A stretch of DNA of 64,000 nt, taken from positions 186,001-250,000 of the forward strand of contig NC_011126.1 of the NCBI RefSeq assembly GCF_000020785.1, read 5' to 3'. This stretch comes from Hydrogenobaculum sp. Y04AAS1 (lineage in GTDB: Bacteria > Aquificota > Aquificia > Aquificales > Aquificaceae). Position 1 is the stretch's first letter. The number at the start of each line of letters is the position of its first letter. Shown in pieces: positions 2,690 to 32,273 of the stretch. Below the pieces are notes generated by a model that was given only the letters and a program-made list of their open reading frames with translations, did not search any database and was not told where the DNA came from. The position numbers and the translations under genes are program-made.

Positions 2690-4912
2690 TTAAACCTTTA
2701 CGCTTTCGTCTTTTGGGTTTGGTTGATAGCTTGACATACTGGTATCCCGTGGCAGACTTGCAGTAAGCTTTTTGTATTCTTCTTCCAAAGCGTTTGGTTT
2801 ATGAAGGTAAAACCCTTGGAAAAACATAAACTCTTTTGGAAAATGAATAGACGAAGCAATGTTTGTGAGAGCTTCCAGTATTTGGTTGCTGTCTACAAAC
2901 TCGTATATCACCCTAAGCTTGTTTCTTTTACAAAACATGGTGATAGTTTCCACCATAGACATATAGACCTGTGAATCCAATATTTTCTTTACTATAGCAC
3001 CGTCTATTTTTATGGTTTTTATGAGACCAGACTCCGAAAGCTCTCCTATGAGCTCGTAATTGGTGTATCCTGTGCCAAAATCATCTAAGGCAAGGTAAAG
3101 TAAATGATCTTTCATATCGTTTTCAAACAATTCTTTGTTGGTGGTGATAGCGTATTCGGTAAGCTCTAAGTTTAGCATAACCTCATTTTGTGATAGTGTT
3201 TTGACAAGTTCTTTTAAAAGCCCTACTACTTCACCGTTTTCAAGAGAAGGTGGATATATGTTTAGATAAAGCTCGTTGGTTATAGCTTTTATCTTATCTA
3301 CATTTTCCAATACTTTACCGATAACGGCTATATCAAGTAGCGTCATCGCATTTTCTCTTTGGAGAATGTTTATAAATTTATAAGCTGGTATGTAATTATC
3401 ACCTTGTTTTATCCTTACAAGCACTTCAAAAAATCTGTTTTTCAAGTTTTTATCGTATATCCATTGAACAAAAATATCTACATCTTTATTTTTTACTTTC
3501 TTTAAAACGATATCTTTTAGCTCTAAGTTTGCCTTTGCTTTTTCCAAGAGCTCTAACTTTCTATCACTTACATCTACTATCACCAAAGGTGGTGCAAGTT
3601 CTTTAAATTTTGTTTTTGACTCTTCTTTTATTATATTTATAATCTCATTTAGTTCTTCTGAAGACACTTCAAGAAATCTATTTATATCAAACTTATATAT
3701 ATAAAATACTGGATGGTTGCCAATCGCAAAATTTGATGTTTTTAAATCTTCTGCAAACAATTCTATATCTTTTATTAGATCGTTGTAAAAGCTAACAAAA
3801 TTGTAAGTTAGATCGTTGTTTAAAAATACATAGAGCTCATTTTTAACTCTGGTGAAAAACAGTTGGTTGAAATTTTCCATATGTTTGACAATAACGCTTT
3901 CTAGCATTTCTAAAATTGTTTCACATTGTTTGCCAAGCTGTCTATCTGTCATGGATCCAAAAAAGTTTACCACTAAAAGAGACAATTTGTCCTTATACTT
4001 TTTGTTGTTTAATATCTGTGGTATAAGTATTTCTTTGTCTTGATTCCAACGATTTGAGATAAGTTCATAGTTGTATATAAGCTCATATACAGCGTTTATA
4101 ACGTAGTTTGATATAGAAACAGCATGCCTGTAATCTTTTGAAATATAATAACCTATAAGCTGGTTCATATAAGTGTGAACATCTTTGTGTATTTCTATGG
4201 TTTTGACCTTAATAGCTTCTGCACCAAAACTCATTATGTCAAAACCAAGCCCATGAAGAATCTGCCCTACTTTGCACTCAATGTGGCTTTGCATCTCAGC
4301 TTTGAGATGCTCTTCAGAAACTTCTTTAAAAGCTTTTTGTATAGATTCTAATTTATTTTTTATACCTTCTTTAAAAAATAAGTCGTATTTTGAAGAAGTA
4401 TGTATGTTGTCACCGTTTATTATAAAGTTGATAGCGTAGCCTATTATACCTTCTATATAAGCATTGGCAGTGGTTTTGTCAAGCATCTCTTTTAACCTCA
4501 TTATAGTAGTACTTTCTAACCCAAGCTCTTCTTGATGAAGTTTTAAGAGATCTATGTAATAATCTATGGAATCAAGCATGGTATCTTTATTTACACCAAG
4601 CTGGTAATGTCTTCTGGCTATAATTTCAAGCTCATTCTCAGCTGTTTTTAGAGCGGTATCATCGCATTTCGACTCTGAGGACCAGGCGTTGCCATTTCCT
4701 TGCTCTGAGAACGGCCTTTGGCACACTTCATCTTTTTCTTGGATAAGTTTTATTATATTGTAAAGCACTTCAGATTGGGCTTTTATTAGTTTTTCAATTG
4801 TAAAAGGTGAGTTGAAAAACGCTGATGCATGGTAATCTTGTAAAAAGTGTGAGTAAAACTCGCTGAATATCTTATGCGATATGGTTAAGAACTTCTCTTT
4901 TTCTGCAATCAT
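2690..4912 (-). CDS. Globin-coupled EAL-domain phosphodiesterase
   Basis: 740 residues; ATG 4912 follows an AGAGGTG site. The N-terminal 150 residues resemble a sensor globin (protoglobin type): helical, with RRHYQLGV placing a candidate proximal His at 102. The middle, about 190-480, is not recognised and may include a degenerate GGDEF fold. The C-terminal EAL domain, about 480-720, has EVL for EAL, an ExTE motif (LELTEYA), DDFGTGY at 610-616, KID and QGFYLHKP, so metal-binding residues look kept and c-di-GMP hydrolysis is likely. Gas or redox sensing through heme is inference. Residues 63-88 are encoded exactly by a copy of the repeat family found between genes elsewhere in this window and would form a loop within the globin part. 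Confidence 0.8.
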   Translation of the reverse strand: MIAEKEKFLTISHKIFSEFYSHFLQDYHASAFFNSPFTIEKLIKAQSEVLYNIIKLIQEKDEVCQRPFSEQGNGNAWSSESKCDDTALKTAENELEIIARRHYQLGVNKDTMLDSIDYYIDLLKLHQEELGLESTTIMRLKEMLDKTTANAYIEGIIGYAINFIINGDNIHTSSKYDLFFKEGIKNKLESIQKAFKEVSEEHLKAEMQSHIECKVGQILHGLGFDIMSFGAEAIKVKTIEIHKDVHTYMNQLIGYYISKDYRHAVSISNYVINAVYELIYNYELISNRWNQDKEILIPQILNNKKYKDKLSLLVVNFFGSMTDRQLGKQCETILEMLESVIVKHMENFNQLFFTRVKNELYVFLNNDLTYNFVSFYNDLIKDIELFAEDLKTSNFAIGNHPVFYIYKFDINRFLEVSSEELNEIINIIKEESKTKFKELAPPLVIVDVSDRKLELLEKAKANLELKDIVLKKVKNKDVDIFVQWIYDKNLKNRFFEVLVRIKQGDNYIPAYKFINILQRENAMTLLDIAVIGKVLENVDKIKAITNELYLNIYPPSLENGEVVGLLKELVKTLSQNEVMLNLELTEYAITTNKELFENDMKDHLLYLALDDFGTGYTNYELIGELSESGLIKTIKIDGAIVKKILDSQVYMSMVETITMFCKRNKLRVIYEFVDSNQILEALTNIASSIHFPKEFMFFQGFYLHKPNALEEEYKKLTASLPRDTSMSSYQPNPKDESVKV
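4649..4726 (-). repeat. Intergenic-type repeat inserted in frame in a gene
   Basis: On the coding strand this 78-nt stretch begins GTGTGCCAAAGGC and ends AAATGCGATGATACCGCTCTA, minus one base at each quotation edge, which matches the ends of the repeat copies at 31941-32173. It is exactly 26 codons with no stop and has the same length as the tandem unit at 31941. The 5' hairpin (GCC-AAA-GGC) is intact; the 3' hairpin has one A/C mismatch. Confidence 0.8.
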
Positions 4913-15677: not shown

Positions 15678-15955
15678 AGTGTGTATAGCATTTCTTACAT
15701 CGTAGTGTGCGTAGCATTTCTTACACTACCAGTGCCTATTCCTTCATCAACCCCCGAAGTAAAATGCGATTTCACCGCTCTAGTGTGCGTAGCATTTCTT
15801 ACACTACCAGTGCCTGTTCTTTGCTTTGTTCACGACGAGTCTGCCACACAATAGTAAAACGCAGGCGTCACCGGTCTAGTGTGCTTGGCATTTTCACCTC
15901 GTGTATACCTGTTCCCTGTTTTGTTCACGATGTAAAATGCGATTATATCGCTCTA
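15678..15955 (+). repeat. Cluster of structured repeats (one partial, three full)
   Basis: A partial copy at 15678-15703 is followed by copies from about 15704, 15782 and 15879. 5' hairpins read TGC-GTA-GCA twice and TGC-TTG-GCA. 3' hairpins read GCGAT-TTC-ACCGC, a diverged form, and the perfect GCGAT-TAT-ATCGC. Adjacent copies share the TA of CTCTA/TAGTG. The cluster fills the gap between the start of aroC and the 3' end of the outer membrane protein gene. Confidence 0.85.
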
Positions 15956-17147: not shown

Positions 17148-17370
17148 AGTGTGCCGAAGGCATTTCTTACATCGTGAGATAAGCGTTTATTAAGAAAATA
17201 GGCATCTGAAATATGGTAAACCACCCTGTGTACAACATTTCTTACACTACCAGTGCTCGTTCTTTTGTCTTGCTACGACAAGTCTGCCACGGTTCACAAG
17301 TCTGCCACGGTTCACAAGTCTGCCACGGTTCACAAGTATGCCACGCAATAGTAAAATGCGATTACATCGC
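17148..17370 (+). repeat. Structured repeats with internal 18-bp array
   Basis: A 5' half (TGCC-GAA-GGCA hairpin, 17148 onward) is followed by unrelated sequence, then a second copy from about 17224 with hairpin TGT-ACA-ACA, ending in GCGAT-TAC-ATCGC. The 3' end runs into the last codons and stop of the gamma-carbonic anhydrase gene on the minus strand. Confidence 0.8.
17279..17350 (+). repeat. 18-bp direct repeats, four units
   Basis: CAAGTCTGCCACGGTTCA occurs three times exactly in tandem (17279-17332), then a variant CAAGTATGCCACGCAATA at 17333-17350. It is an expansion of a module found once in other copies of the repeat and three times inside recR. Confidence 0.95.
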
Positions 17371-17938: not shown

Positions 17939-18253
17939 GCATTTCTTACATCGTATAGTGTGCTGGAAGCATTTCTTACACTACCAGTGCCTATTCCCTC
18001 GTCAACCCCCGACAAGTCTGCCACGCAATAGTAAAATGCGATTTCGTCGCTCTGCCTGTCCCTTCATTAACCCACGAGGTGAAATGCGGGCGTTACCGCT
18101 CTACCTATTTTTTAGCTTTAGCTCTTTTGCCTGTTCTTTAGTCAACCCACGAGGTGAAATGCGGGCGTTACCGCTCTACCTATTTTTTAGCTTTAGCTCT
18201 TTTGCCTGTTCTTTAGTCAACCCACGAGGTGAAATGCGGGCGTTACCGCTCTA
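17939..18253 (+). repeat. Cluster of structured repeats
   Basis: 5' hairpins TGC-TTG-GCA and TGCT-GGA-AGCA are followed by four 3' ends: GCGAT-TTC-GTCGC with a wobble and three GCGG-CCGC forms. The last CTCTA overlaps the stop codon of the NifX-like gene (18251-18253). Confidence 0.85.
18104..18253 (+). repeat. Exact 75-bp tandem duplication
   Basis: Units 18104-18178 and 18179-18253 are identical, each starting CCTATTTTTTAGC and ending CCGCTCTA. Perfect identity indicates a recent duplication of the 3' half of the repeat. Confidence 0.95.
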
Positions 18254-18667
18254 CCTTGTAAGAAGCTCAAATTTATCGGGGGTTATGAGGGTAAGTTCGT
18301 TAGATTCGTATTTTTTTAAAAGCTCATCAAAACTTATCTTATCATCTTCGGCAAAATACACCTTCATACCATTTGTTATAGCGAGGTTGTAAGCTCCTTG
18401 TCCCATGTGTAGGGCTATAAGTTCTCTTACACCAAGAGATAGTAAAAACCTTATCACCATACCGCCCCTTTCTACCGGGTTTCTTAGGGTTTTAATGGTT
18501 TTTGAGTTTTTATCGTAAAAAGCAAAAAACTTCACTTCTCCAAAAAGTGGTGATATTTTGATGGGGCTATTTTCCTTTGGGGCTTTTATTGGTATAGCCA
18601 CATGGTTTTCATAAGATTCAAAGCCTTCTGGCAATGTAAATCTCTCTACTGTTTTAAGCATTTTCAT
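18251..18667 (-). CDS. NifX/NifB-type cofactor-binding domain protein
   Basis: 138 residues; AGGAGG seven bases before ATG 18667. The dinitrogenase iron-molybdenum cofactor domain fold is visible: VAIPIKAP at the first strand, ISPLFGEVKFFAFYD, NPVERGG, LGVRELIALHMGQGAY and GMKVYFAE. Stand-alone members occur in many non-diazotrophs, where they may handle Fe-S or other metal clusters; function here is unknown. Its TAG stop is the end of a structured repeat. An inverted repeat, TAACTA-N6-TAGTTA at 18703-18720, lies upstream and may be an operator. Confidence 0.78.
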   Translation of the reverse strand: MKMLKTVERFTLPEGFESYENHVAIPIKAPKENSPIKISPLFGEVKFFAFYDKNSKTIKTLRNPVERGGMVIRFLLSLGVRELIALHMGQGAYNLAITNGMKVYFAEDDKISFDELLKKYESNELTLITPDKFELLTR

Positions 18668-18996: not shown

Positions 18997-19359
18997 CTAG
19001 TGTGTGTAGCATTTCTTACATCGTATATGCCTGTTCCTTCATTTTGCTACGATGTAAAATGCGGGCGTTACCGCTCTAGTGTGTGTAACATTTCTTACAT
19101 CGTAGTGTGCTGGAAGCATTTCTTACACTACCAGTACCTGTTCCCTCGTCAACCCCAGAAATAAAATGCGATTTCATCGCTCTGCCTGTTCTTTTATCAA
19201 CCTACGATGTGAAATGCGGACGTTGCCGCTCTGCCTGTTCTTTCATCAACCTACGAATTAAAATGCGATTGTATCGCTCTAGTGTGCTTGGCATTTCTTA
19301 CGTGGTATATGTCTGTTCTTTCATTTTGCTACGATGTAAAATGCGATTGTATCGCTCTA
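18997..19359 (+). repeat. Largest cluster of structured repeats
   Basis: At least five 3' ends and four 5' ends. The first copy (18997-19077) is the clearest: 5' hairpin, then TTACATCGTA pairing exactly with TACGATGTAA across a 22-nt loop, then GCGG-CCGC. Other 5' hairpins read TGT-GTA-ACA, TGCT-GGA-AGCA and TGC-TTG-GCA. The final CTCTA supplies the stop of the 44-residue gene on the minus strand. Confidence 0.88.
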
Positions 19360-31282: not shown

Positions 31283-31943
31283 GGATTTTATACCAAGAAA
31301 TCTTCTAAAAGCTTTGGAAAACATAAAACATATACCTGGCTATGGTGAAAAAAACGCTTCAAGGTTTGTATACGGCTTTTTAAAGCTTGATAAAATCAAA
31401 AAAGAAGATATCGTAAAAAGCTTAGAAAATCTTTTTTCTATAACTACATGTAAAGAGTGCAACATACTTACAGATCAAGAAGTTTGTGCTATATGCTCTA
31501 ATCCAAAAAGAAGTAAAAAGTATATAGCTGTAGTAGAAGAGTCTCAAGATGCTTACAAGATAGAAAAATTGGAGCGTTTTAAAGGTGTTTATCATATTTT
31601 AGGTGGTCGTATAAGTCCACTGGAGGGTATAGCACCAGAAGATTTGAGTATAGAGCTTTTAAAAGAAAGAATAAGAAAATACAATCCGAAGGAGATAATA
31701 ATAGCCACAAATCCAAACCCGGAGGGTGAGGCTACAGCTAACTATCTTATAAAAATAATAAAAAGCTTAAACAATAAATCTGCTACAAGTATGCCACGCA
31801 CCACAAGTATGCCACGCACCACAAGTCTACCACGGTCTACTACACCGAAGATAACACGCATAGCCACCGCTATCCAGTTTGGTACGCTTATAGAGTATGT
31901 GGACGATCTATCTTTGGAAGAGAGCATAGAAAAAAGGGAATAG
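31272..31943 (+). CDS. recR: Recombination mediator RecR with repeat-derived insertion
   Basis: 223 residues from TTG 31272, longer than the usual 195-205. RecR forms a clamp with RecO/RecF for gap repair. The helix-hairpin-helix (IKHIPGYGEKNASRF), zinc ligands (CKEC, CAIC) and Toprim motifs (VVEESQDAYKIE, IIIATNPNPEGEATANYL) are intact. Between the Toprim domain and the final strands (TRIATAIQFGTLIEYVDDLSL) lie three copies of a six-residue unit, TSMPRT twice and TSLPRS once, encoded by 18-bp repeats (172-189). The stop TAG is the first three bases of a structured repeat. The TTG start is a best guess. Confidence 0.92.
   Translation: MAFEDFIPRNLLKALENIKHIPGYGEKNASRFVYGFLKLDKIKKEDIVKSLENLFSITTCKECNILTDQEVCAICSNPKRSKKYIAVVEESQDAYKIEKLERFKGVYHILGGRISPLEGIAPEDLSIELLKERIRKYNPKEIIIATNPNPEGEATANYLIKIIKSLNNKSATSMPRTTSMPRTTSLPRSTTPKITRIATAIQFGTLIEYVDDLSLEESIEKRE
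31785..31838 (+). repeat. 18-bp submodule, three units, in frame in recR
   Basis: ACAAGTATGCCACGCACC twice, then ACAAGTCTACCACGGTCT. The unit is the same 18-bp module that is repeated at 17279-17350 and occurs singly in intergenic copies (13795, 32230). Being 18 bp, it keeps the recR frame. Confidence 0.9.
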
Positions 31944-32273
31944 TGTGCCAAAGGCATTTCTCTGAGCTTTTGAGTGTCTTTGCATGTTCATTAGATCCGA
32001 AACGCGCTGATAGCGCTCTAGTGTGCCAAAGGCATTTCTCTGAGCTTTTGAGTGTCTTTGCATGTTCATTAGATCCGAAACACGCTGATAGCGCTCTAGT
32101 GTGCTTTAGCATTTTTCATAGTTTTGAGCGGCTTTGTCTGTTCTTTAGCTTTGAAACGCGCTGATAGCGCTCTAGTGTGCCGATGGGCATTTCTTACATC
32201 GTATATGCCTGTTCTTTCATCTTGCTACGACAAGTATGCCACGCAATAGTAAAATGCGGGCGCTACCGCTCTA
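31941..32273 (+). repeat. Cluster of four structured repeats between recR and pilT
   Basis: Units begin at 31941, 32019, 32097 and 32173. The first two are near-identical 78-bp tandem copies. 5' hairpins: TGCC-AAA-GGCA twice, TGCT-TT-AGCA, TGCC-GATG-GGCA. 3' hairpins: GCGCT-GAT-AGCGC, one with a first-pair mismatch, again GCGCT/AGCGC, and GCGG-CCGC. The cluster donates stop codons to recR at one end and pilT at the other. Confidence 0.9.

Follow-up and report, generated by a model that had tools for sequence, protein, structure and literature searches.

Mobile repeats that code for part of a protein have been described before in Rickettsia and Wolbachia, where the palindromic elements RPE and WPE (~100–150 bp) are dispersed between genes and also lie in frame within many conserved protein genes. 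RPEs occur in tmRNA and M1 RNA as well (PMC2229807). Duplication of their target is listed as unknown, and Rickettsia orthologues mostly share the insert sites. The TA-targeted MITEs (RUP of pneumococcus, Correia/NEMIS, ERIC) are small and non-autonomous, with a terminal TA and a duplicated target.

A 78-bp repeat family of Hydrogenobaculum has features of both groups. As with RPE and WPE, its copies are dispersed over intergenic DNA and over many conserved protein genes, where they keep the reading frame. It differs from them in being shorter, in its host, a free-living hot-spring thermophile of another phylum, in having a duplicated TA and sites that are exactly empty in other strains, and in that no long palindrome has been demonstrated in it. 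Like the MITEs, it is small and non-autonomous, ends in TA and duplicates its target. Unlike them, it is shorter, has a large fraction of its copies in frame within genes, and is not accompanied by any IS630-type transposase found in the genus (five genomes). We report here on one copy, at 4649–4726, which very probably belongs to an orphan, TA-targeted, MITE-like element (~76 bp plus a shared TA) that is present in two Hydrogenobaculum species and would persist in genes as a translated peptide.

The repeat copy in a globin-EAL gene and its family

The window analysed is a stretch of 64,000 nucleotides (G000:C1:186001–250000) from the 1,559,514 bp genome of Hydrogenobaculum sp. Y04AAS1, hereafter G000; G030, G031 and G033 are congeners. 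A gene on its minus strand (2690..4912) encodes a protein of 740 aa with a sensor-globin-like N-terminal domain (residues ~1–165) and a C-terminal EAL domain (472–685). The repeat copy, on the same strand (4649..4726, 78 bp), is stop-free and, read from 4726 to 4649, starts with GTGTGCCAAAGGC and ends with ACCGCTCTA; its 3' end is also given as CCGCTCTA. In the sense frame, GTG TGC ..., it makes up codons 63–88 of the gene, and the 26 residues are VCQRPFSEQGNGNAWSSESKCDDTAL. A peptide predicted across the insert is, for example, DEVCQRPFSEQGNGNAWSSESK. By BLAST, the copy shares 75% and 72% identity with other full-length copies, among them the 78-bp units that stand in tandem at 31943 and 32021. 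The family model gives it 82.6 bits (E 2.6e-20), the copy being itself among the 19 sequences from which the model was built. Sequence, BLAST and family model bear out the initial annotation, which had read these 78 nt as a repeat copy forming exactly 26 in-frame codons, residues 63–88. It had also matched the length to that of a tandem unit at 31941, and the array there indeed has a period of 78.

The insert had further been placed between helices of a sensor globin. In an AlphaFold model of the protein (3 sequences, mean pLDDT 72.8), residues 68–80 form a disordered loop flanked by helices 39–64 and 86–104, in agreement with this placement, and the N-terminal domain probably represents a sensor globin. 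The best 50 Foldseek matches against the PDB were all globins, several of them globin-coupled sensors, with weak E values (~0.1 and above). The Protoglobin profile, PF11563, was found at E 0.0078, under its cut-off, only once the 26 residues were removed. As a control, 26 residues were removed at offsets −16 to +2; PF11563 appeared there too, best at −8, so that the insert is localised coarsely.

Nineteen copies were aligned, giving 28 invariant columns, and a covariance model built from them was used for genome searches. It detected 60 copies in G000 and 49 in G030, and none in the other 62 of the 64 Aquificaceae genomes searched, three further congeners included. The exact head pattern had one match among 84,980 species genomes (in Chloroflexales, a chance match), none in Rickettsiales and none in viral contigs; by this exact pattern, no sequence link to RPE or WPE was found. 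Copies stand alone or in head-to-tail arrays with a period of 78 bp. In the window, such an intergenic array lies on the plus strand, with units at 31943..32020 (78 bp, the top-scoring copy, 96 bits), 32021..32098 (78 bp) and 32099..32174 (76 bp). Weaker relatives, also on the plus strand, were located at 15705..15782 (GTGTGC...ACCGCTCTA with a variant middle, 20.1 bits), 15879..15955 (22.8 bits), 19105..19184 (27.8 bits) and 19282..19359 (28 bits). At 18069–18256 and 19137–19280, units of 75 bp and 49 bp that carry the tail module AAATGCG...CGCTCT are arrayed in tandem; they are apparently rearranged relatives of the 78-mer.

Two small terminal hairpins of the element, GC[C/T]nnn[G/A]GC and GCGATnnnATCGC, show compensatory changes, whereas none were found in the copy alignment for a long central stem. 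The termini, TAGTGTGC and TAGAGCG, are loosely alike and make imperfect terminal inverted repeats, and folding z-scores of the element ranged from +1.1 to −2.0. A long palindrome spanning the whole element was not supported, the self-complement identity being 0.59 versus 0.56 for shuffled sequence and the central stem showing no covariation. 'Palindromic' is thus apt only in part, the two terminal hairpins covarying and the long central stem not, and since no whole-element stem covaries, the term 'palindromic element' needs care.

Filled and empty sites in protein genes and tmRNA

Stop-free, in-frame copies were found in about 11 protein genes of unrelated functions, several of them essential, and the element enters these unrelated proteins in both orientations and in three frames. 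The gene for ribonucleotide reductase (G000:1215033–1218050), the closest solved homologue of which is a class I enzyme, contains four inserts of the 78-mer type and one 18-mer. A second EAL gene has inserts of 78 and 96 nt and an open frame through both copies; the frame is likewise open in a DinG-type helicase gene with two sites, DinG-a (402044) and DinG-b (403149). One in-frame copy is present in the gene of a type IA topoisomerase, and the IleRS gene (ileS) carries a truncated copy, also in frame. The remaining in-frame copies are in genes for an HDOD protein, TnpB (G000:1438966–1439043), an rve-type transposase (G000:623508–623585) and a low-complexity protein labelled 'FliK-like', a label without a family match behind it, and in a pgsA-like gene.

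The solved IleRS aligns to residue 418 and resumes at 445, with no residues missing on the solved side, and the solved reductase homologue aligns to 482 and resumes at 514. In multi-species alignments, the reductase insert 482–507 was exactly missing in G030, G033 and G031, where the flanks are nearly identical, and 17 residues were missing at the IleRS site in four congeners. The reductase orthologue of one congener, ~94% identical where aligned, has no inserts over its assembled part. In G030, the site in the pgsA-like gene is cleanly empty, and the topoisomerase retains the last 12 insert residues only, which is an in-frame partial deletion. The possibility that contig breaks of G033 hide copies was dropped, as the break in its reductase joins plain coding sequence.

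Sequence was drawn from the neighbourhood of the copies, and the flanks of every copy were mapped between G000 and G030 to find filled and empty pairs. Exact empty sites with a TA duplication were obtained for the reductase, for DinG-b and for an N-terminal pair in the reductase. At this N-terminus, TTCTTCTATATCTTGG of G000 corresponds in G030 to TTCTTCTATA-[GTGTGC...CGCTC]-TATCTTGG, the TA being duplicated, and the G030 insert consists of two tandem copies (G030:1215062–1215217). The same pattern was observed at G000:403149 (DinG-b) and G000:1216528. At the HDOD site, the net gain was 75, not 78. TA precedes 47 of 65 copies and ends 56 of 65. The signature of TA-targeting transposition is present both in the filled/empty pairs and at the copy ends. 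As to an autonomous partner, no DDE_3 transposase was found in five genomes of the genus Hydrogenobaculum, and no DDE_Tnp_1 or Y1_Tnp transposase in G000.

Two expectations of the initial annotation, a duplicated target at the ends and orthologues lacking the 26 residues, were confirmed for the family and not at the EAL site. The duplicated target is TA in the family, but the copy at 4649–4726 is preceded by AA, so that its 5' TA is not intact. Insert-free counterparts exist for the reductase, ileS, HDOD, DinG-b, pgsA-like and tmRNA sites; the only full orthologue of the globin-EAL gene is filled.

As annotated by Rfam, the tmRNA of G000 measures 426 nt and that of G030 348 nt, and the 78-nt gap between them is the copy at G000:60554–60631. 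A paper of 2014 (PMC4227106) described this insertion as an extension without precedent, close to pseudoknot 4 of the Hydrogenobaculum tmRNA. It was left unexplained there and was not linked to the ~60-copy family, which offers an explanation for it. The parallel with Rickettsia palindromic elements drawn in the initial annotation holds for the family, with its in-frame inserts in many unrelated genes, its tmRNA copy and its insert-free orthologues.

A second dispersed repeat, 18 nt long (ACAAGT[A/C]T[G/A]CCACG + 4 nt) and frequently in 18-bp arrays, was observed in the window (17278–17345 and 31785–31834) and at G000:1215928–1216008. Its exact cores number 90 in G000, 69 in G030 and 23–51 in three other congeners, versus 0 for the reversed control. 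It also lies in frame in genes; the G000 reductase, unlike that of G030, contains it as about six residues (QVYHDS). Its presence inside the 78-mer gives the 96-nt copies.

Conservation, length and reading frame of the inserts

The full EAL orthologue, that of G030 (90% protein identity), has the insert at the same place, and the ends VCQR.FSEQ and KCDDTAL are kept in both strains. This is what one would expect of a functional module, a 26-residue loop retained since it tunes the globin sensor and, elsewhere, other hosts; the DinG-a copies, conserved to 96% like their flanks, fit it as well. Such a role is nevertheless improbable. Divergence is concentrated in the core of the EAL insert, and the element DNA is 77% identical between G000 and G030, versus 92–95% for the flanks, which speaks against a peptide conserved for its function. 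Several other orthologous copies also diverge more than their flanks, DinG-a being the exception; exchange between copies may be one explanation for the excess divergence. Moreover, with both orientations and three frames used in unrelated proteins, there is no single shared peptide, and several inserts are strain-specific.

Lengths that are a multiple of three were found for 21 of the 22 intragenic copies, versus 22 of the 43 intergenic ones (Fisher p 0.00025, an optimistic value given the non-independence of the two strains' copies). The sole intragenic exception is 79 nt long, yet the net gain there is 81. Every intragenic copy is read in one of three frames, sense 0 or antisense offset 1 or 2. 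Each of these is open in 16–17 of the 22 intragenic copies, versus 16–22 of the 43 intergenic copies and 24% per frame in shuffled sequence. Neither a length of 3n nor open frames would be required if the insert were removed by RNA excision or skipped by the ribosome, in the manner of an intron or a bypass element, and so never reached the protein. This alternative, to which the covarying terminal hairpins and the presence of inserts in the essential reductase and IleRS lend some appeal, is in our opinion very unlikely; by analogy only, the RPE-bearing gmk of Rickettsia is translated and active (PMC2229807). Judged by their sequence, the Hydrogenobaculum inserts would be translated within the host protein.

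That the 26 residues are ancestral in the EAL protein and gave rise to the other copies is hardly credible: no EAL orthologue without the insert was found in the genomes examined, but the 78-bp unit recurs in many genes of unrelated kinds, relatives provide exact empty sites, and the globin profile emerges only without these residues. The EAL orthologue of G033 is 53% identical, and its contig starts just downstream of the insert site, with 14 nt ahead of the aligned region; the element tail was not seen in those 14 nt. The EAL site itself would once have been empty.

A TA-targeted element in the genes of a thermophile

According to the preferred reading, that of a TA-targeted, MITE-like element, copies would have been moved by a trans-acting transposase. 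The TA at the end of each copy would serve as a new target, and further insertion next to existing copies would yield head-to-tail arrays with the 78-bp period. Within genes, only those insertions would survive that are in frame and fall in a loop able to tolerate them. Translation would then run straight through the host gene and add a flexible loop of 26 residues, here between two helices of the putative sensor globin; this loop would serve no function and be neutral or slightly deleterious.

A more far-reaching proposal, which we regard as tentative and rather doubtful, is that the element has evolved gene tolerance (three of six frames usually open, in either orientation), moved recently and reshaped essential proteins, with four inserts in one reductase, in a free-living thermophile, beside an 18-nt (6-codon) repeat behaving alike. 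For Rickettsia and Wolbachia, reduced and host-bound genomes gave an easy explanation of protein-coding mobile repeats; their occurrence in a thermophile that is free-living and has a compact genome weakens that explanation. With filled and empty sites at the level of strains and a visible TA target, the cost of inserts in essential enzymes becomes directly measurable.
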